From assembly GCA_003232185.1 (NCBI GenBank), contig QIMC01000337.1, positions 1 to 36,606 on the forward strand: a stretch of DNA of 36,606 bases, in the 5' to 3' direction. Under the pieces are notes generated by a model that saw only the letters and a list, made by a program, of their open reading frames with translations, ran no database searches and was not told where the DNA came from. The position numbers and the translations under genes are program-made. Source of the DNA: Flammeovirgaceae bacterium (GTDB taxonomy: Bacteria; Bacteroidota; Bacteroidia; Cytophagales; Cyclobacteriaceae). Of the stretch, positions 5,948 through 32,560 are shown one piece after another (positions within the stretch are counted from its first letter, which is position 1; each line of letters begins with the position of its first letter).

Positions 5948-7375
5948 TTAAGCTCCACCTCTCCCAAAAATTATCACTGGGATTGTACTGAAGAGTATTT
6001 TAAGATCCATCCATACCGAACAATGCTCTTTGTAGTACAAGTCTAAGACTATTTGTTGATTAAATAATACCTCGTCTCTTCCATTTATTTGCCAGACACC
6101 AGTCATCCCTGGCTTGATGGCACATCGTTGTTTTTGCCATTCTTTCATTACTTCGAACTCATAGGGAAGACAAGGTCTTGGACCAACCAGGCTCATTTCT
6201 CCAATAAGAACATTGATCAACTGGGGGAATTCATCAATTGACGTTTTTCTCATAAACTTACCTAATGGAGTAATTCTGGGATCATGTACAAGTTTTTCGG
6301 TACTATCATTCTCTAAGATCATTTTCCTTACTTTCTCCTGATGTAATTGGGTGCTAACATTAACGAACATAGATCTGAATTTATACATCAAAAACTCCTC
6401 TCCGTCTTTACCAACACCATTGGCTTTATAAAAAACGGGGCCTTGGGACGTTAATTTGACTAATATAGCAATTATAAGCCAAATGGGTAATAACCCAATA
6501 ATAACCACTAAAGACACCATTACATCGAGACTTCGCTTTAGGAAAGGATAAACTAATTTGTATCCGTGTTGTGGCGGTACGTATCTAAAAGCTGAAACTT
6601 TTCCAATCTCTTCGATATTAATTTTTTGGTGGGCAATATTGTATAGTTCAGATACTATATGAACCGTGCTATTGGATTCCTTGCATTTATCAATAATTTC
6701 ATGAAGTCGGTTGTCACATTGGGTATCAGAGGCTACCAGGATGTCATGTACATTAAATCGATCTACCAGTTGAGGGAGGTCCGAAATACTGCCAAGGACA
6801 GGTATTCTGTTTACTTCTTGTCCCAAAGGTTGCTCCTTATCATCCACCAACCCAATAATATTGAAATAGCTGCTTCTATTTTCAATTAGTTCATCCGCAT
6901 GCTCAATACTGAGTTTACCACATCCCACTATCAACAGATTTCTATTTATGATTTTTGTATTTACCAGCCTGTAGAAAATGTTAGGAATAATCAATACCCG
7001 GGTTATTCCAAATATGATGGATAAGTTGATGTAAATCAAGCCCAATAAAACCCGGGCGGATGTCATTTCTTCGATTTTAAAAATGAACGAGAAAAAAACC
7101 AACGCTACTAAACTGAGGAACAAAGCTTTTTGCAGGGCTATTGCGTGACGCAATTTATTCAGTATCACCTGATATTTATAAACTTCTGTTTCCGCCATAG
7201 CCAGAATAAGTGTGCCTATGATAAGTAAATAACCTAACATCAGGTCACTTGTAATATAGCCAAGCTCAAAGTATGAGCTATAGTTGCTATACATTACATT
7301 CGACAAATATATGGTAAAGACAATCACCAAGATGTCATGAATTACAAGCAGTAATTTGTGAGTACGAAATCTCAT
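5948..7375 (-). CDS. Undecaprenyl-phosphate glycosylphosphotransferase (exopolysaccharide initiating sugar transferase)
   Basis: 475 aa; N-terminal TM segments, nucleotide-binding-like central domain, C-terminal bacterial sugar transferase motifs KRSLDVMVSLVVIIGLLPIW, MYKFRSM, TSIDEFPQLINVLIGEMSLVGPRPCLPYE, KPGMTGVWQINGRDE. Confidence 0.95.
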   Translation of the reverse strand: MRFRTHKLLLVIHDILVIVFTIYLSNVMYSNYSSYFELGYITSDLMLGYLLIIGTLILAMAETEVYKYQVILNKLRHAIALQKALFLSLVALVFFSFIFKIEEMTSARVLLGLIYINLSIIFGITRVLIIPNIFYRLVNTKIINRNLLIVGCGKLSIEHADELIENRSSYFNIIGLVDDKEQPLGQEVNRIPVLGSISDLPQLVDRFNVHDILVASDTQCDNRLHEIIDKCKESNSTVHIVSELYNIAHQKINIEEIGKVSAFRYVPPQHGYKLVYPFLKRSLDVMVSLVVIIGLLPIWLIIAILVKLTSQGPVFYKANGVGKDGEEFLMYKFRSMFVNVSTQLHQEKVRKMILENDSTEKLVHDPRITPLGKFMRKTSIDEFPQLINVLIGEMSLVGPRPCLPYEFEVMKEWQKQRCAIKPGMTGVWQINGRDEVLFNQQIVLDLYYKEHCSVWMDLKILFSTIPVIIFGRGGA

Positions 7376-15246: not shown

Positions 15247-16887
15247 TCAAAACTTTCTAATTCGCATTAACCCATCAATTACTGTGAGGTTATTGGCCTC
15301 ATTAATTGTGTGGAGTCCGATAATGTTTTTACTCCAACCTGGTTTGTATGACGTTATTTCAACCTCAAGGTACTCACTAGTACTCAGTGTAATAACTTTG
15401 TTTATTTTTAAGCCATAACCATACCTCTTTTGACAGATTTGTGAAGGTCGATATAATTGCCCACTTCTTTTGAATAACCTGCCGGCCGGCCTGGCACTGG
15501 AAGTATCAGAAACTATTGGGTTCTGAGGGTGCGCACTCCAATGATTGCTGGTTGGGTCATCCGAATAAAAGAGATAAAGTTCGTCCCAATTTAAAGCCCC
15601 GGAATTTTCCCGAACATTGGTAAATAACCACCAACTACCATCATGTTCTACTACCGTGGTGTCCGCGGCCACTATATTGCTTATAAGGTCATACTGATAA
15701 TCCCATTGGAAAGGGAATTTCGAACTCTTGTACAACTGGATATTTCCATTTTCGGAAGTTTCCGGGATCATATAATAGCTACCTTTCCAATGAAAAATAA
15801 AAGGATACGACAAATGATAGGGTTTACTTAACACCGTGGTTGGATGACTTATATTGCCCTCCGGGTCCATTTGAATCATTGAAATAGTCCCTTTGGCATT
15901 CTTTTTTAATGAGATATCTTCAAAAAAGATGTAGTATTCTCCATGTTCGAATACAACGAAAGGATCCGCCCAGAACCTGTCCTTAGGGGGCATTAATTTT
16001 CTATATTGACCAAATGAAAAATCTCCTTTTTCATTAGATGATAACAGCAGGATCCACTTTTCAAGATAGATTTTGTGATAGAATTTTTTAAAACATAGTC
16101 TTTGGTAATACTTCAAAAGTGGAAAAACCAATGATCTAACATTTGGTATCCGGGCAGGTGGTGACTTGACACTGTTTTGATATTTATTTCGAACCATATC
16201 AAAAAACTCCGTTTTTCCTAGCTCATGCAATTTCACTAGCTGCCGTGGTATAAATGAAGCAGTTTTCCAATAATGAGGATTAGCATTACGTTTGATATAA
16301 ATAGACCAGATAGAAGAATAAGATTGATATACAATTTCCTTGCTATTACCAAGTTGGGCAGTTAGTACGCAGTTTATTGAGGGTTTATCTTCTATAACTT
16401 CCCAAAACCCAGCAGTAATTCTATTGAAATTTTTATCATAGTCTTGGAAACGCCATAAGCCAAGTGTTGAATTTATCAAGTGAGAATGACTATAGTCGCC
16501 GTCTGATAATTGAATCCACAAATCAACTGGATGTTTATTAATCGCCCTTTTTTCTATATCGGTGAAAACTCTGGTAGAACTCTTGGCACTCGAAAACTCT
16601 AAAGTTGGACAGTTTTCCAGCAATGACTTTACATGGATTTTACTAAACGCATTTGGAATAGGTTTTTTTATTTGATAATTGTTTCTTATGAAATTATCAT
16701 ACATTTTTAACCCTTTGCCCTTGATTTTGCTATTTACCACCACTAGCGAAATTCGCGCAAACTTCAGGTCTTTTATTTTTTGTAACATTAGATGTTCCCA
16801 TGCAGGAATATTCAGTGAATCAAGAATTATTCCTATTGAAATTTCTATTTCATGTTTCAACGAATTCAAGGAATTGGGATCAACCAT
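15247..16887 (-). CDS. GINT1_N-like (glucosamine inositolphosphorylceramide transferase 1 N-terminal domain) protein with a formyltransferase-like N-terminus
   Basis: 546 aa; N-terminal SIGIILDSLNIPAWEHLMLQKIKDL (formyltransferase-like start); C-terminal half PPKDRFWADPFVVFEHGEYYIFFEDISLKKNAKGTISMIQMD...YHLSYPFIFHWKGSYYMIPETSENGNIQLYKS (beta-propeller-like). Confidence 0.7.
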   Translation of the reverse strand: MVDPNSLNSLKHEIEISIGIILDSLNIPAWEHLMLQKIKDLKFARISLVVVNSKIKGKGLKMYDNFIRNNYQIKKPIPNAFSKIHVKSLLENCPTLEFSSAKSSTRVFTDIEKRAINKHPVDLWIQLSDGDYSHSHLINSTLGLWRFQDYDKNFNRITAGFWEVIEDKPSINCVLTAQLGNSKEIVYQSYSSIWSIYIKRNANPHYWKTASFIPRQLVKLHELGKTEFFDMVRNKYQNSVKSPPARIPNVRSLVFPLLKYYQRLCFKKFYHKIYLEKWILLLSSNEKGDFSFGQYRKLMPPKDRFWADPFVVFEHGEYYIFFEDISLKKNAKGTISMIQMDPEGNISHPTTVLSKPYHLSYPFIFHWKGSYYMIPETSENGNIQLYKSSKFPFQWDYQYDLISNIVAADTTVVEHDGSWWLFTNVRENSGALNWDELYLFYSDDPTSNHWSAHPQNPIVSDTSSARPAGRLFKRSGQLYRPSQICQKRYGYGLKINKVITLSTSEYLEVEITSYKPGWSKNIIGLHTINEANNLTVIDGLMRIRKF

Positions 16888-17010: not shown

Positions 17011-18507
17011 ATGGAAGTAAAAGCCCAAGCCAAAAGGGCCATTCCATATTCAATTGGCATATCTGTTTTTAACATTGTGGTGGCCCTTTTTGGGATGGTA
17101 TTCCTGGTAAGGTATCTCGAGGCTGTTGAGTATGGGGTATTGGCAATACTTACAGGATTACCGGTGATCTTTAATTTATTGATTTCATTCGGATACGATC
17201 AATATATCTTGAGATACATCCCGAATATCTCAGAGTCCAAACTAGTAGGGGATATTATTTGGAGGATAGTCTTTAAACGAATGGCCTTGGCCATTATATT
17301 TTCATTATTACTAATTGCCACATTCGATATTTATTCAGAAAGGTTTGAGTTAACGGAATACTATCCCCATTTGGTTATTTTTCAGATTGTGGTTGTTTTT
17401 CGCATAGGAAATAATCTCCTAAATATAAGCTTTGGCGTTAGGTTTTTACAGAAGCAGGTTCTTTTACTTGGTGTGATTTACCAGGCACTGCGGATATCAG
17501 CAATAATCTACGGAGTGATAGAAAAGAAGGATCTGCAGTTTTTCATTTTGGCTTTCACAGTGGCTGAGATTATAAGAATATTGTTGTCTAGTATATTGTT
17601 TTCAAAACATTTTGGGCAGCCTCGGTTGAGAAAGCTAATTCAGTCTAGAGATGAAAGTAAGGAAGAAAAAAGCTATAGAAATATAAGCTACCTTAATAGT
17701 TTAGGGACTTCTTTTCTGGGAACCGATATTGATAGGTATGTACTGGGTTACTTTTCCACAAATGTTCAAGTTGCCATATATGCAATAGCCACCAAAATTT
17801 TAACACATCTTTTGTATTTGTACCCAAGTAAAATGTTTAAATCCGTAATAGAACCTGCATTTTATAGTAAGTATGATAATTCAACCAATGAATCCGATCT
17901 TAATAACATGTTTCAATTTCTATTTAATGCCAACACTATGATTGGATTCATGTTTATTTCTATCTTTTATCCTCTAGGAGATAAACTTTTAATGCTGGTA
18001 TTCGAACAGAAATATATTGAACAGGTCTTTTGGCCTTTGCTTATTTTTCTAATTTTTATAGTATTTTATGCGATACCATTAGGTTTAGTTGCAAATGCCA
18101 TTAAGAAGCCAAAGATCTTACTTTACTCTAAGATCTCTGTGGTAGTCAATATAGCTTTGGGAATTCCGTCAGCGTATTATTTCGGAGCTATTGGAATGGC
18201 CGCGGCAACAGCTTTTAGTGTTACATTAAAAAACGCAATCATATATTTACTTTCATCAAAGTACGTGACTATTAGATTACCCTGGATGTCGACATGGAAG
18301 GCATTAATAAATGCCCTGATTACCTTAGGTGTGTTATATTTGTTAGATGAATACCTTAGTCTGCCTGTTATTATTTCGTTGGTTATTGGGATAATAATAT
18401 ATATAGTCCTTTTGAAGGTTAATCCCATATTAACTCCAGACCAAAAAAACTTGCTCTTGACGCTTGTACCCAATAAATTTGGGGCATTGGCCAAAGCATT
18501 GATTTGA
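17011..18507 (+). CDS. Polysaccharide flippase (Wzx/MATE-like)
   Basis: 498 aa, multi-TM; PYSIGISVFNIVVALFGMVFLVRYLEAVEYGVLAILTG...; LGTDIDRYVLGYFSTNVQVAIYAIATKI; C-terminal TM pairs. Confidence 0.88.
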   Translation: MEVKAQAKRAIPYSIGISVFNIVVALFGMVFLVRYLEAVEYGVLAILTGLPVIFNLLISFGYDQYILRYIPNISESKLVGDIIWRIVFKRMALAIIFSLLLIATFDIYSERFELTEYYPHLVIFQIVVVFRIGNNLLNISFGVRFLQKQVLLLGVIYQALRISAIIYGVIEKKDLQFFILAFTVAEIIRILLSSILFSKHFGQPRLRKLIQSRDESKEEKSYRNISYLNSLGTSFLGTDIDRYVLGYFSTNVQVAIYAIATKILTHLLYLYPSKMFKSVIEPAFYSKYDNSTNESDLNNMFQFLFNANTMIGFMFISIFYPLGDKLLMLVFEQKYIEQVFWPLLIFLIFIVFYAIPLGLVANAIKKPKILLYSKISVVVNIALGIPSAYYFGAIGMAAATAFSVTLKNAIIYLLSSKYVTIRLPWMSTWKALINALITLGVLYLLDEYLSLPVIISLVIGIIIYIVLLKVNPILTPDQKNLLLTLVPNKFGALAKALI

Positions 18508-20049: not shown

Positions 20050-21147
20050 TTAGTTTTGCAATAATTTATTATATTCGATTTCATAACTTCTCACCATTTT
20101 ATCAAGGTTGAAATTTTCAATAACGATTTTTTTACCTTCAGACCCCATGCGTTTAGCAAGATGGTTGTCATCCAAGATTGTCAATATTGATTTGATTAAT
20201 CCTTGTATGTCATAAGGTTCTATCAAAATGCCTGTTATTCCATCTTTCACCAATTCTGGTGTACCACCACCATTGGTGGCTATTACCGGTTTGCCAAATG
20301 CCATAAATTCGAGAACAGCATTTGGTATCCCTTCTCCATGAATTCTGTGGTTTGTAGTAAGTACACCTAGGTCTATTGCACTCAGGTAACGTTCAATGTT
20401 ACTTTTACGACCAATTAATTGGATATTTTCTTTTAAGGAATCAGGTATCATGGCCTGGAATTTGGATAAAAGTATCCCATCACCGATGGCAACAAATGCT
20501 ATATCTTTTCTTGTATTGGAAATATGTATCGCGGCATCAAGAAAAGTGTGGTAATCTTTTCTAATCTCAAACGCGCCAACCATAGCTACAATTTTTTTCC
20601 CATGTAGGTTTAACTCATCTTGAATTTCATTGGTTGAAATCGAATAATTTAATCTATTTAGATCATAACCATTATGAATGAAAACACTTTTCGCTTTAGG
20701 TGCGTTGTATGACTTTAGACCCATTTCGGAATTGGCTATTATCAAGTCAGACATGGGAAATGTGAGTTTACTCCGAATCCAGTTAGTGACTTTAAGTCGA
20801 AAAGGGGCATTGTATATCATGGCATTTACAAACTTTATACCTAATAATTTTGCGACGGGTAGTGAATAAACAGAGCACATACTTTCACAACTCTGAATGA
20901 TCGAAGGTTTTATTTGTTTGCATAGTTTATATAGGCGACTGAAAATACTCAAATCCTTTTTCCTTCGCCTTTCGAAAAAGTGAATTTTTATTGGTAGGTC
21001 AAATACATCTTTATAATCGATAATAGTGGACAGCATCACCAGATGAATTTCCAGGGATTCATTTTTAGATAATCCTTTAAATAACTCAATGAATCTTCTT
21101 TCTTTGCCGCCGGTTTTCAGCGTATCAATAATAAAGAGTATTCTCAT
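20050..21147 (-). CDS. Glycosyltransferase family 4 protein
   Basis: 365 aa; MRILFIIDTLKTGGKERRFIELFKGL; IHNGYDLNRL; VAMVGAFEIRKDYHTFLDAAIHI; EGIPNAVLEFMAFGKPVIATNGGGTPELVKDGITGIL. Confidence 0.95.
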   Translation of the reverse strand: MRILFIIDTLKTGGKERRFIELFKGLSKNESLEIHLVMLSTIIDYKDVFDLPIKIHFFERRRKKDLSIFSRLYKLCKQIKPSIIQSCESMCSVYSLPVAKLLGIKFVNAMIYNAPFRLKVTNWIRSKLTFPMSDLIIANSEMGLKSYNAPKAKSVFIHNGYDLNRLNYSISTNEIQDELNLHGKKIVAMVGAFEIRKDYHTFLDAAIHISNTRKDIAFVAIGDGILLSKFQAMIPDSLKENIQLIGRKSNIERYLSAIDLGVLTTNHRIHGEGIPNAVLEFMAFGKPVIATNGGGTPELVKDGITGILIEPYDIQGLIKSILTILDDNHLAKRMGSEGKKIVIENFNLDKMVRSYEIEYNKLLQN

Positions 21148-21237
21148 TTGCTCAAGATGACTTTCATTAAGTTTTGTAATACCAATTATTTAGTGGTCTT
21201 TTTAAAAGACAAGGGTCGTTAAAGTTGTACCTTTTTT

Positions 21238-21275
21238 AGTAAAAGCCATAGCTACATGGGTTTTACTTCTTTTTT
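21238..21275 (+). terminator. Orphan intrinsic-terminator-like hairpin
   Basis: agtaaaagccat-agctac-atgggttttact (12-bp stem, one G-G mismatch) followed by tcttttt; no plus-strand gene lies upstream within the intergenic gap. Confidence 0.5.
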
Positions 21276-21510
21276 AAGATAAAAAGAAAAATTTGAAAGA
21301 ACAATTCCACCGAATACGATTTGTCAGAGCAATAGTGACACCGATCAAGAATACAAACTTGAAAGATTCTCAAATTTCAGAGGAATGATCTAGAAGCAGG
21401 TAATGTATTAAATATTGTACCATTTATGATCGGGAGAAGAATACTAAAATAGAATCTTAAACACGTATGTGGTATATTAAGCACGGATACCATTCTTGGA
21501 TTAAAGGTTA

Positions 21511-21848
21511 GTGGAAGAAATAATTCTTGCCGATAAAAACATCAAAGTGCCGTTATTTCAAACCAAGTCTGTTTTAAGAGATACGTTTGGTGAAAATTTA
21601 CCAAAATCGATTTTAAACGCTCCAAAAAAGGTTTTAATGTTCCCCTACCAGAATGGGTCAAAGACGACTCTGTTAATCAAAAGCTAACAGATTTATTGGA
21701 AACAGATGGGTTAAATAATAAATTGGTTAAAAAAATCGCAAAGAAAACAAAGAGAGTAAATCTGATAATGGGAACTTTATATATAGATTTATGGTTTTTA
21801 GTGATTGGATCAAACAGACTACTGGATCCTAAAGCAGTTATTTATTAA
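21511..21848 (+). pseudogene. C-terminal remnant of an AsnB-type amidotransferase, with one frameshift
   Basis: EEIILADKNIKVPLFQTKSVLRDTFGENLPKSILNAPKK then, one nt out of frame, GFNVPLPEWVKDDSVNQKLTDLLETDGLNNKLVKKIAKKTKRVNLIMGTLYIDLWFLVIGSNRLLDPKAVIY*. Compare LPKSILKHKKQGFAIPLSSWFKDDLKEYIQDRL of the intact AsnB at 10207-12081. Confidence 0.8.
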
Positions 21849-21871
21849 CAGTTTTACAAAATTAAATCACT

Positions 21872-23209
21872 TTGTTTATGGTACGTAAAACTCTTGATAT
21901 TTCCCTTACTCCAAATTTTAATTTCCGAAGGTATTCATTAGTGCTATCCTTGTTTTTTCTTGCAGTTTCAAGTTCTTGCCAAATTGATTCTACAAATGCA
22001 CAAAGCCTGGTGATTTTTCCAGATGCAGAGGGTTATGGTAGATTTACTAAAGGAGGAAGAGGCGGAACAATAATCAAAGTAACAAATCTTAACCAAAATG
22101 GACCTGGATCACTACGTGCGGCGGTAAAATTTAATGGTCCTCGTACAGTGGTTTTTGAAGTATCTGGAACTATCAATATGGCAAAAGACCTGGTAATTAA
22201 CCATCCGTACATAACAATTGCAGGTCAAACTGCCCCTTCACCTGGGATATTGTTAAAGGGTGGTACAGTTGTCATTAAAAGCAACAATATACTCATTCAA
22301 CACATTCGTGTGCGATCAGGTTTAGGAACAGATGACGCTATAAAATTTGGTGCTGCCGGCTCTGAGCAAGTATACGATGTGTACCTGGACCACGTATCGG
22401 CCAGCTGGGGGGTGGATGAAACTATGAGCGTCTATCAAAATAACAATGGATATGTTCATGATATCTCAATTGATCATTGCTTTATTACTGAGGGGTTAGC
22501 CAAGAACAATACCTTTACCGGCGCCAAAGGTTTTCTGATTAATAAGGGAAATAGTCCTAACAATGTTGTGGTAGGACCCATAAGTATCACCAAATCTCTT
22601 TTTGCACATAATAACCAGAGGAACCCAATGATATATAATGGTGTAGAATTAGTGTTGAGCAATAACATTATTTACGGATATAGGCATACTGCTCTGAATA
22701 TCAATGGAAGAGCAGCCGGGATTGCAAAAGTATCTGTGATAAACAATGTATTTAAAACGAGAATACTAACAAAAATAAGCCCTGTCAATGGAGTTGATAA
22801 CCCTAACGTTGAGCTTTACCTTTCAGGTAATGAGCTGGATGGCAACATTCCAAGTAATCAAAGTACACTTGTTAGCCGTAGCCTTACTCTGGTGAACCAC
22901 AGTCCACTTGCCCTAAACGGGGTTAAAATACTGTCCACTCAAATCACCGAGAACTACGTTCTTCATCAAGCAGGCGCCAGGCCTACAGATAGAGATTCCG
23001 TGGACGCCAGAATTGCTAATGAAGTTAGAACTGGTACCGGAGATTGGATGGATCAAGCCGAGGTAATAAATGCATATCCTGATTTGAACAAAAATACAGT
23101 GCTCTTTACCATCTCTAATCCAAATGTTGATGATGACAATGATGGGTATACTAACTTGGAAGAGCTGTTGTTCGAAATGAAGCTTGAGATCGAGGGAAAA
23201 TCCAATTAA
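21872..23209 (+). CDS. Pectate lyase-like (PL1-type beta-helix) protein, probable lipoprotein
   Basis: 445 aa; GYGRFTKGGRGGTIIKVTNLNQNGPGSLRAAVKFNGPRTVVFEVSGTINM; AGQTAPSPGILLKGGTVVIKSNNILIQHIRVRSG; YLDHVSASWGVDE; DDDNDGYTNLEELL at the C-terminus. Signal peptide with lipobox-like LAVSSSC. Confidence 0.85.
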   Translation: MFMVRKTLDISLTPNFNFRRYSLVLSLFFLAVSSSCQIDSTNAQSLVIFPDAEGYGRFTKGGRGGTIIKVTNLNQNGPGSLRAAVKFNGPRTVVFEVSGTINMAKDLVINHPYITIAGQTAPSPGILLKGGTVVIKSNNILIQHIRVRSGLGTDDAIKFGAAGSEQVYDVYLDHVSASWGVDETMSVYQNNNGYVHDISIDHCFITEGLAKNNTFTGAKGFLINKGNSPNNVVVGPISITKSLFAHNNQRNPMIYNGVELVLSNNIIYGYRHTALNINGRAAGIAKVSVINNVFKTRILTKISPVNGVDNPNVELYLSGNELDGNIPSNQSTLVSRSLTLVNHSPLALNGVKILSTQITENYVLHQAGARPTDRDSVDARIANEVRTGTGDWMDQAEVINAYPDLNKNTVLFTISNPNVDDDNDGYTNLEELLFEMKLEIEGKSN

Positions 23210-23734
23210 CAAGACAGAAAAATCATTGAATACAATCTGGTTCTTTTTATCAAAATGATATGATACCAGCCAAAAATCATTGTTTTCACCCTACAATTAT
23301 GATTCTGGTTCAAAATTTAATTGTTCAAGTATATAGTATAACAGAAGTTATAATATATACAAATAGTTAAAATTCACTCCTACCATAGTTATATTTTTGA
23401 TAGTAATTAATAGCAGCTAATTACTTCTTTAAGATTGAATCATACATCCCTAAAGTGGGTGCTATGCCCAATTATATTTTAATTGTTACACAAAAACTTA
23501 AAATAATTCTACCAATATCAAATTGAAACACATCAATTATCATTTTGGCATTTTCAGTTGCTCCACAGATGCATTAAATATCATAAAGAACTAATAATCA
23601 ACACTTTGTAAAAAACACCAGATGATCATTTTTTCTTGGCATATATCCTGCTATGCTTTTAACAAGAAATAGTCAAATCTGGTGGATACAATTATTAGTG
23701 CAAAATTGTTCAGAATTTTTTAAACATACTTTGA

Positions 23735-26700
23735 ATGTCTGGTAAGAATTTTTACTCTCTATTATCTACTTGCGTTATCTCATCTATATTTTTCTCATTC
23801 ATACTTATTGCTAATGTAAATTTTGCATTTGGCCAATTACCTGTATTCCCTGAAGCGGAAGGTTTTGGCAGGTTTGCAACTGGAGGAAGAGGTGGGACTA
23901 TAATTCGCGTTACTAATTTGAACTCTAGTGGCGCAGGTTCTTTAAGCAATGCTGTAAACTCGAGCGGTGCTAGAATTGTGGTTTTCGAGATTTCAGGAAC
24001 CATTAATTTGGGAAGTGATTTGGTCATCAGAAATCCAAACCTGACCATTGCTGGCCAATCTGCCCCTTCACCTGGGATATTGTTAAGGGGTGGTACGGTT
24101 GTCATTAAAAGCAACAATATACTCATTCAACACATTCGAGTGCGATCAGGATTAGGATCCGATGATGCCATAAAATTTGGAGCCGGCAGTTCTGAACAAG
24201 TATATGATGTATATCTAGACCATGTTTCTGCCAGTTGGGGCGTTGATGAAACTATGAGTATTTACCAAAACAACAATGGATATGTTCATGATATCTCAAT
24301 CGATCATTGCTTTATTACGGAGGGGTTAGCCAAGAACAATACCTTTACCGGCTCCAAAGGTTTTTTGATTAATAAGGGAAATAGTCCTAACAATGTTGTG
24401 ATAGGACCCATAAGTGTCACCAAATCTCTTTTTGCACATAATAATCAACGAAATCCGAAGATCTATGATGGCACAGAATTAATCTTTAGTAATAACGTTA
24501 TTTATAGTTATAAGCATACCGGATTGTCTATTGACGGTAGAACTGATGGAATTTCGGTGGTGACGGCAATAAATAATATATTCAAAACAAGAGTTAATCC
24601 AAATGTAAATCCGGTACAAATGGATGATAACCCTAACGCTCAGATTTATCTTTCCGGGAATGAGTTAGACGGCAATGTTCCCTCTAATCAAAGTTCGCTG
24701 GTTAGCGGTAATGTTAATCTTGCTGGCCAGAGTCCGCTATCTCTAAATGGGGTTAATATCCTTTCCACTCAATTAACTGAAGACCATGTTCTTAATCAGG
24801 CTGGAGCCAGACCCGTAGATAGGGATGCCGTGGATGCGAGAATTGTCAATGAGGTGAAAACCGGAACCGGCGACTGGATGGATCAAACAGAGGTGAATAG
24901 TGCTTATCCTAACTTAGCGGTTAATAACCGATCATTTAGTATATCCAACGCAAACGGCGATGATGATGGTGATGGCTACACTAATGTAGAAGAATTACTT
25001 TATCAAATGAAATTGGAAGTTGAGGGAAGAGCAGGCGTCCCAAGCAATACCGCACCTACTATTAGTAACATATCTAATCAAACTATTGATGAAGATGATA
25101 CTATGGGTCCTATCTCATTTACTGTTAACGATGCTGAGTCTTCTGCTAACTCTTTAACCCTAAGTTCTAGTTCAAGTAACAATACTTTAGTCCCAAATAG
25201 TGAGATTGTATTTGGAGGCAGCGGTACCAATCGCACCATAACTATCACGCCAACTTCAGGTCAATTTGGTACTGCTACAATCACTGTTTCTGTTTCTGAT
25301 GGAAGTGTACAGGTTTCTGATATATTCGTCCTGACAGTTAATGAAGTATCAACTGGAAATACGCCTCCCAGAATTGCTAATATAGCCACCCAAACCATAG
25401 ATAAGGACCAGACTATGGGTCCAATTGTCTTTACAGTTGAGGACGATGAATCTGCGGCAGGCACATTAACATTATCTGGAAGTTCTAGTAACACCGGACT
25501 TGTCCAAAATAATGATATTGTTTTTGGGGGCAATGGAGGAAATAGGACCATAACAATTACACCTAATCCTGGCCAAACAGGACAGGCGACTATTACTGTT
25601 ACCGTATCAGATGGCGAGGATCAGGATGTGGAAACTTTTACGTTAAGGGTAAATGAACCGGTATCTAACAATACTCCTCCTACTATTTCCAATGTTTCTA
25701 ACCAAACCATAGATCAGGACCAATCAGTAGGGCCTTTGAATTTTACCATTGGCGATACAGAAAGTTCAGCGTCCTCCTTAACGGTAACTGCCGGTTCCAA
25801 TAACAATGGATTGGTGCCTTCTGGTAGCATTAATTTAGCAGGAAGTGGAACAAATCGCACCATCAGTATTACTCCTAGTGCTGGACAGTTCGGTACGGCC
25901 AGCATTACCATAACTGTTTCAGACGGGGAAGATGAAGGTTCTATTAGTTTTGTATTGAACGTAAACCAAGTTGCAGCAGGTGGTACACCTCCGACTGTAA
26001 GTAACTTGAGTAATCAAACAATCTTGCAAGATGAGACGCTTGGGCCTCTTGGTTTCACAGTGGATGATAATGAATCTAACCCTGGTACACTTTTATTAAC
26101 CGGAAGTTCAAGCAATGGTGCACTGGTTTCAAACACGTCAATCATTTTTGGTGGAGGAGGCAGCGATAGAAACATTACAGTAATCCCTACTACTGGTGCC
26201 TTCGGCACTACTATCATAACTGTTACTGTATCAGATGGTCAGGAACAGGATTCTGAAACCTTTGAACTTAACGTGACTGCTAATACGGCTCCTACAATAA
26301 GTAACATTCAAAACCAAACAATTGATCAAAACCTGGTATTGGGACCCATTAGCTTTACAATCAGTGATTTAGAAACAGTAGCTGGAGACTTGGTATTAGA
26401 TGCTAGTTCAAGTAATACCGCGCTGGTGTCAGCACCAGGCATAAACCTTGGTGGAAACGGCAATGATAGAACTATTACCGTAACCCCACGACAGGACAGA
26501 AGTGGGATTACCGAAATTACCATATCTGTTTCAGATGGAACAAACATCAATTCAATCACTTTCCAAGTAACAGTAGTTGGCCCTTCACCTAATACCCCTC
26601 CTACAATTAGTCAGATCACTGACCAGACCGTAGAGGCGAATGAGGTTCTGGGGCCTTTGGAGTTTAACGTCGATGATTCGGAAACTACTGCAGGTACTTT

Positions 26701-28210
26701 GACGTTGAGTGCAAGTTCCAGCAATAAAGTATTAGTTCCTGATGAATCGATATCGCTGGATGGAAGTGGCATTAACCGACTTGTAACAATCGTTCCAGCA
26801 CCCGATGAAATCGGCCAGACTACCATAACCATAACAGTTTCGGACGGGCAGGATGTGACTTCAACCGATTTCATGCTGGAAGTAAATCAGGTAACCCCAA
26901 CAGGTGCAGCTCCTACCATCAGTAACATTGTCGACCAGACTGTCATGCAGGATGAGGTATTAGGGCCAGTTAATTTTAGAGTCAATGATACAGATTCAAA
27001 TCCCATGGCATTACAGGTAACCGGTAGTTCCAGTAATGGAGCTTTGGTTCCGAACCAATCTATATCATTCGGTGGGTCAGGAAGGGCCAGAACCTGTACA
27101 GTAGTACCAAATAGTGGAATGTCTGGGTCCACTACTATCACGCTTACCGTCTCGGATGGACAGGAACAGGTTTCGGAAACATTTCAACTTTCCGTTGTTG
27201 AAAATGAACCTCCAACCTTAAGCAAAATCGAAGATCAGAGTATAGAGAAGAACCAAACTTTAGGCCCTATTGAGTTTTCAATCGGTGATCCTGAGACTGA
27301 TTCAGAGGATTTGATAGTGAGTGTTAATTCAAACAACATAGAGTTGGTGCCTGAGCAGGCCATTGAGCTTAGTGGCACTGGGTCAAATCGGTCAATAACC
27401 ATAAACCCTGGTAAAGATCAGATCGGGTCTGCAAAGATTACTGTGACAGTGTCAGATGGTTCTGAAAAGATCAGTCAAAGTTTCACTGTTACTGTAGCAG
27501 AACCAGAAAAGAAAGAAATTACATTTTCTGTTACTATTCAGGATGCAGATTGCCATGGGGAGAATGGTGCCATTGAACTTAGTATCGAAGGCGGCGTAGC
27601 TCCCTATACCTATGATTGGTCCAATGGGGCGTCCACTGCAAGCATTAGCAATTTGAAGACTGGGATCTATACCATTACGGTAGTTGACAATGCCGCAAAC
27701 TCGGCCACGGCATCATTTGTTGTGAACGAAGCACAAGGCCCGGATAAACCCAATATTTCTTGGGTTGGAGATGACTTGCTGGCTTCTGCGGCCGAAAGGT
27801 ATGAATGGTTCATTGATGGTGAAGTTATCCAAGGGGAAACTGGAAGAACTATTACTCCTCTTAGGTCCGCTGATTATATAGTAACAGTTTATGATACTAA
27901 TGAATGTTTTGCTTCTTCAGATGAGTTCACAGTTACCATTTCTGAAACTGACATTGAGGGCTTAGAACTTTATCCTATACCAGTTATGAGTGATTTAAAT
28001 GTCGAATTGGATCTTAAACAAGCCAATTGTAAGATAGGGATTGGTATTTTCACCTTACAAGGCAGGCCAATTATTCTTAAGAGATTTGGTAAAAATATTG
28101 ATAAACAGTTCAAAACGACTATGGATTTAAACCAATTAAGACCTGGTGTTTACATTATCAAAATCCGTGTGAATGATGAAATAATTCAAAGAAAGCTGAT
28201 AAAGATGTAG
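23735..28210 (+). CDS. Large secreted pectate lyase-like protein: lyase domain, 8 cadherin/Ig-like repeats, SprB-like repeat, Ig-like segment, T9SS type A sorting domain
   Basis: 1491 aa. The N-terminal domain is paralogous to 21872-23209. Eight ~100-aa repeats run from NTAPTISNISNQTIDEDDTMGPISFTV... to NEPPTLSKIEDQSIEKNQTLGPIEFSI... SprB-like unit: DADCHGENGAIELSIEGGVAPYTYDWSNGASTASISNLKTGIYTITVVD. C-terminus: LYPIPVMSDLNVEL...LNQLRPGVYIIKIRVNDEIIQRKLIKM. Confidence 0.92.
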   Translation: MSGKNFYSLLSTCVISSIFFSFILIANVNFAFGQLPVFPEAEGFGRFATGGRGGTIIRVTNLNSSGAGSLSNAVNSSGARIVVFEISGTINLGSDLVIRNPNLTIAGQSAPSPGILLRGGTVVIKSNNILIQHIRVRSGLGSDDAIKFGAGSSEQVYDVYLDHVSASWGVDETMSIYQNNNGYVHDISIDHCFITEGLAKNNTFTGSKGFLINKGNSPNNVVIGPISVTKSLFAHNNQRNPKIYDGTELIFSNNVIYSYKHTGLSIDGRTDGISVVTAINNIFKTRVNPNVNPVQMDDNPNAQIYLSGNELDGNVPSNQSSLVSGNVNLAGQSPLSLNGVNILSTQLTEDHVLNQAGARPVDRDAVDARIVNEVKTGTGDWMDQTEVNSAYPNLAVNNRSFSISNANGDDDGDGYTNVEELLYQMKLEVEGRAGVPSNTAPTISNISNQTIDEDDTMGPISFTVNDAESSANSLTLSSSSSNNTLVPNSEIVFGGSGTNRTITITPTSGQFGTATITVSVSDGSVQVSDIFVLTVNEVSTGNTPPRIANIATQTIDKDQTMGPIVFTVEDDESAAGTLTLSGSSSNTGLVQNNDIVFGGNGGNRTITITPNPGQTGQATITVTVSDGEDQDVETFTLRVNEPVSNNTPPTISNVSNQTIDQDQSVGPLNFTIGDTESSASSLTVTAGSNNNGLVPSGSINLAGSGTNRTISITPSAGQFGTASITITVSDGEDEGSISFVLNVNQVAAGGTPPTVSNLSNQTILQDETLGPLGFTVDDNESNPGTLLLTGSSSNGALVSNTSIIFGGGGSDRNITVIPTTGAFGTTIITVTVSDGQEQDSETFELNVTANTAPTISNIQNQTIDQNLVLGPISFTISDLETVAGDLVLDASSSNTALVSAPGINLGGNGNDRTITVTPRQDRSGITEITISVSDGTNINSITFQVTVVGPSPNTPPTISQITDQTVEANEVLGPLEFNVDDSETTAGTLTLSASSSNKVLVPDESISLDGSGINRLVTIVPAPDEIGQTTITITVSDGQDVTSTDFMLEVNQVTPTGAAPTISNIVDQTVMQDEVLGPVNFRVNDTDSNPMALQVTGSSSNGALVPNQSISFGGSGRARTCTVVPNSGMSGSTTITLTVSDGQEQVSETFQLSVVENEPPTLSKIEDQSIEKNQTLGPIEFSIGDPETDSEDLIVSVNSNNIELVPEQAIELSGTGSNRSITINPGKDQIGSAKITVTVSDGSEKISQSFTVTVAEPEKKEITFSVTIQDADCHGENGAIELSIEGGVAPYTYDWSNGASTASISNLKTGIYTITVVDNAANSATASFVVNEAQGPDKPNISWVGDDLLASAAERYEWFIDGEVIQGETGRTITPLRSADYIVTVYDTNECFASSDEFTVTISETDIEGLELYPIPVMSDLNVELDLKQANCKIGIGIFTLQGRPIILKRFGKNIDKQFKTTMDLNQLRPGVYIIKIRVNDEIIQRKLIKM
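25046..27510 (+). repeat. Eight tandem ~100-codon repeats encoding cadherin/Ig-like domains (within the 23735-28210 CDS)
   Basis: Repeat start motif N/G-T-x-P-T-I-S-N-I-x-(N/D)-Q-T-I, then GP(I/L)xFTV, SSSNxxLV, GGSGxNRTITITP, TITVTVSDG, counted eight times in the translation. Confidence 0.92.
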
Positions 28211-28338: not shown

Positions 28339-29778
28339 TCACAGACGATCACTACCAACTATTTTTTTATGGAAACTATAGTAAACATACTCACAATAAG
28401 CTATTAAGAATATTGCTATGAAACCCGTTTGTCTTATAGTGCCATCATAGTGCATAAAATTAATGGCACGTCGATTGGCGCAACCAATAAACATAAGCAG
28501 TACGATGATTAAACATGTTAATCCTAAGAAGCTAAGATTCCTGGGTTTCTGATTCATAAAACCAAAGAATCTAACAAGGAAATAAAGGTAGATAAATATG
28601 TGATAGCCTAAGCCTAAAATTCCTAGCTGGTGGGTTATACCATTCCAAAAGCCTTCGGACCAGTTGTACTCCCATTCTACGTAAAACATTCTGGGGATAA
28701 TCTGCAGATTTTTAACAAATTGATTTATGGAAAGGTCAGAAACCTTCCTGTTCAAATTCTGAAAATCTTCGGCAGATTCTACATTTACCATTGATTCCAT
28801 ACGGGTGAATAAGAATTCAGGCTGTATTATGACCAGAACTAACATAATAATAAAAATCCCAGCTGTCATTTTCAGGTCACGTTTCAGACCTATCGTAATA
28901 GCGAACCCAAGTACTGTGAATACATAAGCCTGTCGAGATAAACTAATTGCTATTCCCCCCAAGAGGAGCACTATGGAGAGGATATAGAAATATTTTAATG
29001 CATTTCGGGTTGAAAATCTATTTATTGCAAGGAATAATGCGAATACCAATAAAATACCCCAGTCATTTTTGTGACCGAAATATGGATTTTGCCAGAGTAA
29101 ATTGTTGAACGTACCTTGTTCCATGACTAATACGGCAGGGTTTTCAATTGCTAAATAAATTAGCGTTCCTGCTTGAAGTGCTGCCAAAAGAACAAAAAGG
29201 TTGAAAAACCTCAATATATTGGACTGACTAAATTTGGTAAAAACGACATAAATTACATACAGATGCAAGCCGATATTGAATGTTTTGGCAATAAAGTTTT
29301 TTAAGCCCAAAGCTTCGGTTTGACCCAGAGACAATGGCGGCTCTTGCACAATATGTAAGATATCTGCGCTGATCTTGATAAAAATAAATGAGATCGTCAA
29401 AAGGAGCACTGTCCCATATTGAACTGGAAATTTTCTAATCGACTTACTTCTCAGACTAAAATAAATAGCAGGCCAACATGCTATTCGCTGAAACTTTAAG
29501 CCGCTTATTTCCGAACCTATCAGGTTGTCTGGAAAAGGTATAAAAAGTACCAGGGTCAGTACGGCAACGGCATTATAAAACGAAGTAAATTGAAAAATAA
29601 ATATCCCGGCAGCCACTATATATCGAACCTGCTCAGCTGGTTCCATATAAACAGTCAGCCAACAAATCAGATAAATTACACTTAATTGGATCAATGAAAA
29701 AACCTGAGTGTTCACCTGAGTTCCTGTAAAATTTTCGGCTAAACTAATTGATGGTGTGGGATTAGAGGTACTAATCAC
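28339..29778 (-). CDS. O-antigen ligase/polymerase-like multi-TM protein (Wzy-like)
   Basis: 479 aa, about 10-12 predicted TM segments; large loop NNLLWQNPYFGHKNDWGILLVFALFLAINRF, SLSRQAYVFTVLGFAI. Directly follows the Wzc-like gene. Confidence 0.8.
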   Translation of the reverse strand: MISTSNPTPSISLAENFTGTQVNTQVFSLIQLSVIYLICWLTVYMEPAEQVRYIVAAGIFIFQFTSFYNAVAVLTLVLFIPFPDNLIGSEISGLKFQRIACWPAIYFSLRSKSIRKFPVQYGTVLLLTISFIFIKISADILHIVQEPPLSLGQTEALGLKNFIAKTFNIGLHLYVIYVVFTKFSQSNILRFFNLFVLLAALQAGTLIYLAIENPAVLVMEQGTFNNLLWQNPYFGHKNDWGILLVFALFLAINRFSTRNALKYFYILSIVLLLGGIAISLSRQAYVFTVLGFAITIGLKRDLKMTAGIFIIMLVLVIIQPEFLFTRMESMVNVESAEDFQNLNRKVSDLSINQFVKNLQIIPRMFYVEWEYNWSEGFWNGITHQLGILGLGYHIFIYLYFLVRFFGFMNQKPRNLSFLGLTCLIIVLLMFIGCANRRAINFMHYDGTIRQTGFIAIFLIAYCEYVYYSFHKKIVGSDRL

Positions 29779-29786
29779 GTGTCACT

Positions 29787-32195
29787 CTATTGAAGTACTT
29801 TCTTGATCCAACTTTGCTTAAAGTCTTCTTCATAATATCCATACCCATATTGTGATTTTTTCACATCAACATCGTTAAAAATGAGAGACAGATTCTTTAG
29901 CTGACCAGAATTATGAATATTATTAATTTCACTAATGTGACTCTTCAAGGTATAGCCCTTTCTTACCACAAAAATATTTAGATCAGATTTAGACATTAAT
30001 TCAATAGCGTCGGAAATAATCCCGATTGGTGGAGTATCAATGATGACATAGTCAAAAAGACCCTTTATCTTATACAACATTTCATCAAACTTACCGCTAA
30101 TGAGCAACTCTGATGGGTTGGGTGGTATCGCCCCCGGAGTTACATAAAGTAAATTTTTATATTTTGATTCTTGGATAATATCCTCAAGGTCCGCAATTCC
30201 AGCTAAATAATCGCTTAGACCTAGCTGCCCTTTTCTAATTGTATCAGACTCTATTCCATAGTCTTCGAAATTGGCTTTTTTTCTCATGTCAGCATGAATA
30301 ATCACTACTTTTTTCCCGAAATTAGAAAAGACATACGCCAGGTTTTGTGAAACAAATGTTTTTCCTTCTCCGCTAATTGATGAGGTAATCAGAAAAACCA
30401 GTGAGCTGGATTTTCCTTGGGTCAGATATCTTAAATTGGAACGAACGTTTCTGAAAGATTCAGAAATGGCCGATTTAGGTCTATTTTCAGCTACAATAAA
30501 ACTATCCTTTTCCTTCACTTTAGCAATAGTGCCCAGTATTGAAATGTTAGTAAGGTCTAGTAATTCTTCCTTAGAATTAATCTTTTTATTGAAGTAGTCG
30601 AAAACAAGAATCATTAGGATTGGAAGGGCTAGCCCCAAAATAACGGCAAAAGCATAGTTTAATATAGGACTGGGTTTAACAGGTTTTGTTCCTTGAACTT
30701 GGGCGGTGTCTATTATGCGGAAATCCACACTATTCGAAGCTTTAGCTATTCCAGCTTCGGCCTTTTTTTGCATTAGGAACATATACAACTGCTCATTCAG
30801 CTGGTAGTTCCTGCTAATATCGGTGTATTCACGGGCAGCTTTTGGAAGACTGCTAACGGTAGACCGCAGTTCACCTATTTTGCTATTTATGTTGTTTATT
30901 TCCACTGAAGTGGTGTATACTAACCTCTTTAGAACTTCAGATATATTCTCCTTTAAAACATTGATTTCTTTATGTTTTAAGCCTAACAATGGATTGTTAA
31001 ATTTTTTTTCTGATTCTACTACTCTCACCTCTAATAGTAGATCAATTAAGGTATTTACTTGTCTATCAAGATTTTGATCCTCAATCCCCATGGAAGATGG
31101 CGGAATAATCTGCTCCAAGTGATTATTATTAATCAGTCTTTGCATATCCTGCAACTGGACCATTTTTGCGTTTAGGGAAGACTTGTCTCGATTATAGTTA
31201 TTAATGGTCGCCATTATACCGGTAGTCTGTGCGTCCAGGTCAATAGTATTCGTTCTCGATTTGAAAACCTCCAAGCGGTCCTCGACCATGCTCAAAGAGT
31301 CACCCATATAAGCTATCTGTTTATTAATAAATTCGATGGTTTTTGCAGCTATATTGTTTTTCTGCTCCAGTTCGTTTTTAATGTAGTTTTCAACTAGTTT
31401 ATTAACAAAGTCCATCAGTTTGGGGGGGGTATTACCCTCCAATGAAATTTTTAGAACGGAAGATTTCAATGAATAGGGGCTAATTGTCAGGTTTTCTCTA
31501 AACTGCTTAGTCAATCTACTATAATTGTCAATTCTTATGAGAATAGGTCCCTTGTATTTTGGTGTTAGTAATTTCATCCTAAATACAAACTTATCAATCT
31601 CCACTATGGTGCCGAACCTGAAAATCTTTCCGGAAAAAACATCTGGTTTTTTTTCCTTTTTTGAAAAATACTTGTTAAAAAAGGAATCCTCATCCGCTTG
31701 AATTACCCGGAGTGTGTAAGTGCTGTCTGAGCCTCGGATTAACTCGATGTTCTTGGAAAATGGGGTCTTATTAGAAGTACTTCTAATGGAAAGCTCTACT
31801 GGAGATTTATCGTATAATTCAATGTCTCTAACCTTGCCGGGTAATATGTATGAAACTTGGAAATTAAGATCTCTAAGTGATTTTTCAACGATTGCATTAG
31901 ATTTGACAACAACTGCTTCGTTCTCCAGATTTGCATTGTTTCTACCAAAGAACTCCTCTCCATACAGGATCCCCGAAACGGAATTGGCTTCCTGGGGAGG
32001 TTTAATTAAAACTGTTGATTCTACGATATACACCGGATTGGTATACCGGGTGGTTAGAAATGCCACCACTAGAGATAGACTGAGAAACAACAGAATAATA
32101 TGCCATCTAACTAACAGTCGATCTATGATCTTTCTTAAGTCAATGGAGTGATGGTCCTCCGGAGGTTCTTGATTGTGCAATTTTCGATTTTCCAT
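29787..32195 (-). CDS. Polysaccharide co-polymerase / BY-kinase (Wzc-like, Wzz domain + tyrosine kinase)
   Basis: Wzz-like N-terminus (DLRKIIDRLLVRWHIILLFLSLSLVVAFLTTRY, ESTVLIKPP), Walker A ISGEGKTFVSQNLA, Walker B YVIIDTPPIGIISDA, Tyr-rich C-terminal tail YGYGYYEEDF. The ATG at 32195 is more likely than the GTG at 32207. Confidence 0.93.
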   Translation of the reverse strand: MENRKLHNQEPPEDHHSIDLRKIIDRLLVRWHIILLFLSLSLVVAFLTTRYTNPVYIVESTVLIKPPQEANSVSGILYGEEFFGRNNANLENEAVVVKSNAIVEKSLRDLNFQVSYILPGKVRDIELYDKSPVELSIRSTSNKTPFSKNIELIRGSDSTYTLRVIQADEDSFFNKYFSKKEKKPDVFSGKIFRFGTIVEIDKFVFRMKLLTPKYKGPILIRIDNYSRLTKQFRENLTISPYSLKSSVLKISLEGNTPPKLMDFVNKLVENYIKNELEQKNNIAAKTIEFINKQIAYMGDSLSMVEDRLEVFKSRTNTIDLDAQTTGIMATINNYNRDKSSLNAKMVQLQDMQRLINNNHLEQIIPPSSMGIEDQNLDRQVNTLIDLLLEVRVVESEKKFNNPLLGLKHKEINVLKENISEVLKRLVYTTSVEINNINSKIGELRSTVSSLPKAAREYTDISRNYQLNEQLYMFLMQKKAEAGIAKASNSVDFRIIDTAQVQGTKPVKPSPILNYAFAVILGLALPILMILVFDYFNKKINSKEELLDLTNISILGTIAKVKEKDSFIVAENRPKSAISESFRNVRSNLRYLTQGKSSSLVFLITSSISGEGKTFVSQNLAYVFSNFGKKVVIIHADMRKKANFEDYGIESDTIRKGQLGLSDYLAGIADLEDIIQESKYKNLLYVTPGAIPPNPSELLISGKFDEMLYKIKGLFDYVIIDTPPIGIISDAIELMSKSDLNIFVVRKGYTLKSHISEINNIHNSGQLKNLSLIFNDVDVKKSQYGYGYYEEDFKQSWIKKVLQ

Positions 32196-32560
32196 ATTAG
32201 AGATCACTTATTGACCCAAAAATAAAGTATAGATTAAACCACGCTGGCCATGACTTGATAGGTACCGCTAATCCAATGGCACTATTGCAGGTCCAAAGGA
32301 ATCATAAAAACGACGATACTTAAAATAATTGCTATCTCAATTCAAACTTCTATATAGTACTCAATTATGGAGTTGAAATTAACAGTACTTTTGTGAAATT
32401 ATAAAATTTTACTAAAAAATATAAATTAATTTATAGAAACTATAATACATGTGGTATTATTTTACTGAAATAACAACATAAATCAATGATGAAAGTAGTC
32501 TATTCAAAATGTTGAGTATAACTACACCATTGACGAGTTGAATAAGGTATTACAGAAAAT

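Follow-up and report, generated by a model that had tools for sequence, protein, structure and literature searches.

That bacterial paralogs undergo gene conversion is well established. Long-lasting, recurrent concerted evolution has been described for 26 prokaryotic genes, tandem copies included, in which paralogs within a genome are more alike than orthologs, a pattern attributed to gene conversion that recurs at both synonymous and non-synonymous sites (Wang and Chen, 2018; PMC6053082). The tandem lyase genes considered here, found in a 36,606-nt stretch of DNA from a Flammeovirgaceae bacterium (the window) and in its relatives, differ from those genes in being homogenised in the core of the domain only, with an N-terminal segment that mostly keeps orthology, and in that the two copies differ in C-terminal architecture. 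The main text of that study contains no word starting with "lyase" and none starting with "Bacteroid", and a search of the literature on pectate lyase and gene conversion returned nothing relevant. Concerted evolution is a known process; the present setting was not found described.

The best solved relative of the window lyases is PfPL1 of Pseudoalteromonas fuliginea (9buj), annotated as a pectate lyase, which leads both the profile search (E 5e-27) and the fold search and shares 20% identity with them in the fold alignment. The periplasmic Vi-antigen depolymerase VexL (6fi2), whose structure title describes a depolymerase linked to capsule secretion, is also similar (profile E 3.5e-8, fold E 5e-8). 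VexL is only 18% identical to the window lyases and is associated with a capsule system that depends on an ABC transporter; the genes in the window are of the Wzx/Wzy/Wzc type. VexL is not known to have a tandem twin. The lyase RbmB of Vibrio cholerae acts on the matrix polysaccharide of its own producer. Its structures (9ozl, 9ozd) have a beta-helix fold like that of the window lyases, although the fold match is weak (E 3.5e-3, TM 0.14) and on this evidence the enzymes are not of the same family.

Gene 1, the short copy, and residues 1-400 of gene 2, the long copy, are related beta-helix lyases (Table 1). Gene 1 has a signal-like segment at its N-terminus, is without a C-terminal sorting domain and has no Pfam match. 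In gene 2, Pfam places Big_9 Ig-like repeats after the lyase domain, then an SprB repeat and, at the C-terminus, a sorting domain for type IX secretion. A profile search of the PDB matched the lyases to 9buj and 6fi2, and Foldseek, run with an AlphaFold model of only modest confidence (pLDDT 57.5), placed 9buj first (E 6e-10) and 6fi2 next, with several pectate lyases also matching. By predicted fold and by sequence likeness to solved PL1 lyases, the two proteins fit a PL1-type right-handed beta-helix. D, H, E and R residues are invariant in a five-row alignment and may include catalytic ones. An identity as PelZ is not supported: the lyase parts score 191 bits (gene 1) and 184 bits (gene 2) against the NCBIfam equivalog NF041900, far under its curated cut-off of 840 bits. 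Each copy occurs once in the assembly, and their upstream (promoter) regions share nothing longer than 10-mers. A third, divergent lyase (34% identity) lies at a contig end in the same genome (G000:C166:47-1240; L084).

Table 1. Features of the lyase pair and of the surrounding polysaccharide genes, in coordinates of the window
Feature	Position	Strand	Details and basis
Undecaprenyl-phosphate sugar transferase-like protein	5948..7375	-	Pfam Bac_transf 4e-62
Wzx-like polysaccharide flippase	17011..18507	+	Pfam Polysacc_synt 1e-10
Gene 1 (short copy)	21872..23209	+	listed length 445 aa from a TTG start; an ATG lies at 21878; ORF
Gene 1 product: pectate-lyase-like right-handed beta-helix protein	21872..23209	+	profile and PDB matches
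Conversion tract 1, gene 1	22230..22324	+	HMM, 95.8% identity; pS 0.088
Unconverted island, gene 1	22325..22441	+	pS 0.805, 35/39 residues; synonymous codons like flanks
Conversion tract 2, gene 1	22442..22613	+	HMM, 96.5% identity; pS 0.082
Gene 2 (long copy)	23735..28210	+	1491 aa; ORF, Pfam
Conversion tract 1, gene 2 partner	24060..24154	+	HMM, offset 1830
Unconverted island, gene 2 partner	24155..24271	+	offset 1830, synonymous divergence and HMM
Conversion tract 2, gene 2 partner	24272..24443	+	HMM, offset 1830
Wzy-like polymerase or ligase	28339..29778	-	Pfam Wzy_C 4e-4, under its cut-off
Wzc-like chain-length regulator and tyrosine autokinase	29787..32207	-	TIGR01007 eps_fam; Pfam Wzz, GNVR, AAA_31

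The two genes form a mosaic of similar and dissimilar blocks. As a sequence-only reading of this DNA had stated, they align at a constant offset of 1830 nt without gaps (from about 22010 to 23206), and its hand counts at that offset proved exact: 20/30 identical positions at 22201-22230 of gene 1, 87/90 at 22231-22320, 95/120 at 22321-22440, 167/174 at 22441-22614 and 43/60 at 22621-22680. The middle block, which it had described as changed mostly at synonymous sites with its protein kept, indeed retains 35 of 39 amino acids and codes in gene 1 for the conserved DDAIKF and DHVSASWGVDETMS motifs. Codon alignment, one of the checks it had proposed, found synonymous divergence to be low in just two blocks and not uniform over the domain: the NG86 proportion of synonymous differences is 0.783 in the 5' flank, 0.088 in block 1, 0.805 in the island between the blocks, 0.082 in block 2 and 0.761 in the 3' flank. 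A two-state HMM that was not supplied with the earlier boundaries recovered only the two tracts of Table 1, with states of 96% and 67% identity and a log-likelihood gain of 39.8 over one state. When codon columns were permuted, the observed best segment, which covers both blocks, was reached in 0 of 2000 trials. By Fisher tests on conserved degenerate codons, the blocks differ from the flanks (p 4e-16) and from the island (p 9e-8); the island is like the flanks (p 0.85) and block 1 is like block 2 (p 0.42). Since the island resembles the flanks and not the blocks, and the blocks resemble each other, the pair has two converted segments, and the island between them either escaped conversion or was restored. 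Third-position GC of the island is 0.475 in gene 1 and 0.25 in gene 2 (n = 40 codons), and the gene 1 island may come from a separate source. Third-position GC did not reveal which gene was the donor.

Gene conversion between the tandem copies by homologous recombination, whether in one patchy event or in two that followed each other closely, is very probably the explanation, and this part of the earlier proposal is well supported: low synonymous divergence is limited to two sharp blocks within otherwise saturated paralogs. The segments of raised identity are sharply bounded, exceed chance and include synonymous sites. Genes 1 and 2 would thus be old tandem paralogs with saturated synonymous sites, between which about 95 and about 172 nt of the lyase-domain core would have been copied from one gene to the other, presumably through a RecA-type pathway, leaving the 117-nt island unconverted; both blocks would then have diverged to the same small extent. 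The proposal had spoken of two recent tracts. Two segments are borne out, yet two events cannot be told from one patchy or partly overwritten tract, the blocks being equally diverged, and "recent" holds only in a relative sense (dS about 0.09 since conversion). Because the divergence of the blocks is equally small, a single patchy event accounts for them as well as two events at about the same time do. A possible but rather doubtful variant is a single tract of about 385 nt in which recombination with another strain's unconverted allele later brought the island back. The equal post-conversion divergence of the blocks agrees with it, as does the third-position GC of the gene 1 island, which lies above the 0.22-0.38 found elsewhere in gene 1 (n = 40 codons); however, it requires an extra step, and mismatch repair of heteroduplex ordinarily yields patchy tracts.

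Tandem lyase loci of relatives were gathered, and every pair within a locus was searched for stretches in which synonymous codons are identical. Among 96 tandem pairs from 74 loci, four carry tracts at a permutation p < 0.001, namely those of the window, G005, G111 and G175, and each of the four joins a short lyase (445-514 aa) to a long one (1282-2252 aa). Tracts are thus found in 4/18 short-long pairs vs 0/78 other pairs (Fisher p 9e-4, with the short/long cut of 1000 aa picked after the hits were seen). In G005, 815 consecutive nucleotides are identical between the short and the long lyase (L069:1053-1867 and L069:3202-4016), bounded within both coding sequences by flanks of about 70% identity; this is a fresh conversion tract. 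The short-long tracts of G111 and G175 (L088, L090), with blocks of about 92-100% and islands of 83-88% identity, are older and less even. A close ortholog of either window gene, above about 48% identity, was found neither in 60 relatives, nor in 397 genomes of the family, nor in a GTDB contig scan, and 391 genomes of the order yielded nothing at E<=1e-55 besides the window's own two genes.

The relatives also bear on explanations that do without exchange between the window copies. Mixing of reads or k-mers from the two copies during metagenome assembly is very unlikely, even though the source assembly is fragmented (488 contigs, 87.7% complete): a collapsed or mis-joined repeat would give identity, but 3/90 sites differ in block 1 and 7/174 in block 2, synonymous and non-synonymous, and similar tracts occur in G111, a single 6-Mb contig. 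It is equally improbable that a third lyase, and not the partner gene, was the source from which both genes independently received both segments. The genome does hold a third lyase, and third copies join the homogenisation in G111 and G175; nevertheless, the C166 lyase at 34% identity is too divergent to have been the donor, the assembly has no other near copy, and this course is the less parsimonious one.

That protein constraint alone does not account for the blocks, as the sequence-only reading had argued, was upheld by comparison with homologs. Across the family, protein conservation in block 2 is only 26%, about the same as in the 3' flank, vs agreement at 54/57 residues between the paralogs, and the island protein is highly conserved yet synonymously saturated. 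When gene 1 was compared with 85 homologs, the share of shared amino acids encoded by the same codon was 0.28 in block 1 and 0.39 in block 2, with 0.34 for the island and 0.31/0.37 for the flanks; gene 2 gave similar values, except for a higher one in the island (0.45). Constraint on nucleotides (an RNA structure, an overlapping gene or a codon-level signal) or on protein, holding the blocks alike without exchange, would suit their position in a conserved enzyme domain, but it is ruled out, to a negligible residual probability, because the 85 homologs show no excess of identical codons in the blocks and the block 2 protein is poorly conserved; in addition, no Rfam family matches 21000-25500 and the tracts of relatives lie at different positions.

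In the relatives, one lyase domain holds two histories. Trees were built for nine relatives that carry an array of short, long and third lyases, with the N-terminal 75 columns and the core treated separately. In the N-terminal part most copies cluster with the same paralog from other genera (label changes: 5 by paralog vs 21 by genome). In the core, copies of one genome cluster together, either the short with the long or all three, at a support of 99-100 in G089, G122, G111, G175 and G005, and AU tests reject across-genome clades of the short copies (p 2e-9), of the long copies (G089 with G122, p 1.5e-5) and of the third copies (p 5e-8). In the 75 N-terminal columns, the within-genome pair is clearly rejected by the AU test in G122 only (p 0.0025); the other values range from 0.055 to 0.215, with G089, G175 and G111 borderline and G146 not rejected. 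The lyase core of the relatives is under concerted evolution. Paralogs closer to each other than to orthologs are found in the relatives only, with partial support from the N-terminal segment there. The window pair groups with itself both in the N-terminal part and in the core; therefore, either its duplication was separate from that of the relatives or older traces have been erased. Since the same copying is seen in relatives that share the gene arrangement, it appears that only the catalytic core of the twins is kept similar. Trees of the whole lyase domain, and orthology calls in this family, blend the two histories and call for caution.

The lyase pair sits in an exopolysaccharide or capsule locus of a Bacteroidota-type bacterium, to judge the phylum by the type IX domain. 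Besides the genes listed in Table 1, of which the Wzc-like one scores 149.5 bits against TIGR01007 eps_fam (cut-off 108), glycosyltransferase genes surround the pair. At 15247-16887 the same locus encodes a protein in which Pfam finds GINT1_N (PF24793), a domain named after glucosamine inositolphosphorylceramide transferase 1. In the relatives, 8/9 genomes have a gene of the Wza type (PF02563) at 9-21 kb from the short/long/third array, and in the ninth the contig of the array, which is short, carries none. Of nine genomes with short-short arrays only, 0/9 have a Wza-type gene within 145 kb of the array on its contig. The array of G111 has a Wzc-like and a Wza-like gene nearby, and those of G030 and G005 have Wzc-like genes. 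In the long copies examined, repeats of the Ig or fn3 kind occur together with a type IX tail; none of the short copies tested carries such a tail.

This context suggests that the lyases act on the bacterium's own exopolysaccharide, a putative role. More speculatively, and with the odds against it, the polymer made by the cell itself may be the target of both enzymes, with conversion of the core keeping the two matched. Repeated core conversion would then fit a periplasmic or surface short enzyme and a type IX-secreted long enzyme to one polymer, with the N-terminal segment and the C-terminal domains remaining paralog-specific. If so, partial gene conversion would be a specificity-matching device in the exopolysaccharide loci of these bacteria: as the structure of the polymer shifts, both lyases would shift together, although the N-terminal segment and the delivery domains of each would stay its own. 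To what is known of conversion between bacterial paralogs, the window pair adds a clean, quantified case, and the relatives with the same type of pair and of exopolysaccharide locus add a core that alone is repeatedly homogenised. The question of function thereby becomes testable: do both enzymes act on one polymer, and are they kept matched by conversion as it evolves?

Other observations concern lyases outside these pairs. In G002, of the same genus as the window organism, a short contig holds two short lyases and one long one (L065), which are not close in sequence to the window pair. Lyases of two different genera (L040 and L083) share 19 identical degenerate codons in a row at the position of block 1; this resembled a hot spot common to both, but given the 3741 pairs compared, chance or exchange across species is the likely source. 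Finally, in two species of one genus (L079 and L082), a stretch of 73 codons has 95% codon identity over a background of 68%, possibly through recombination between species.
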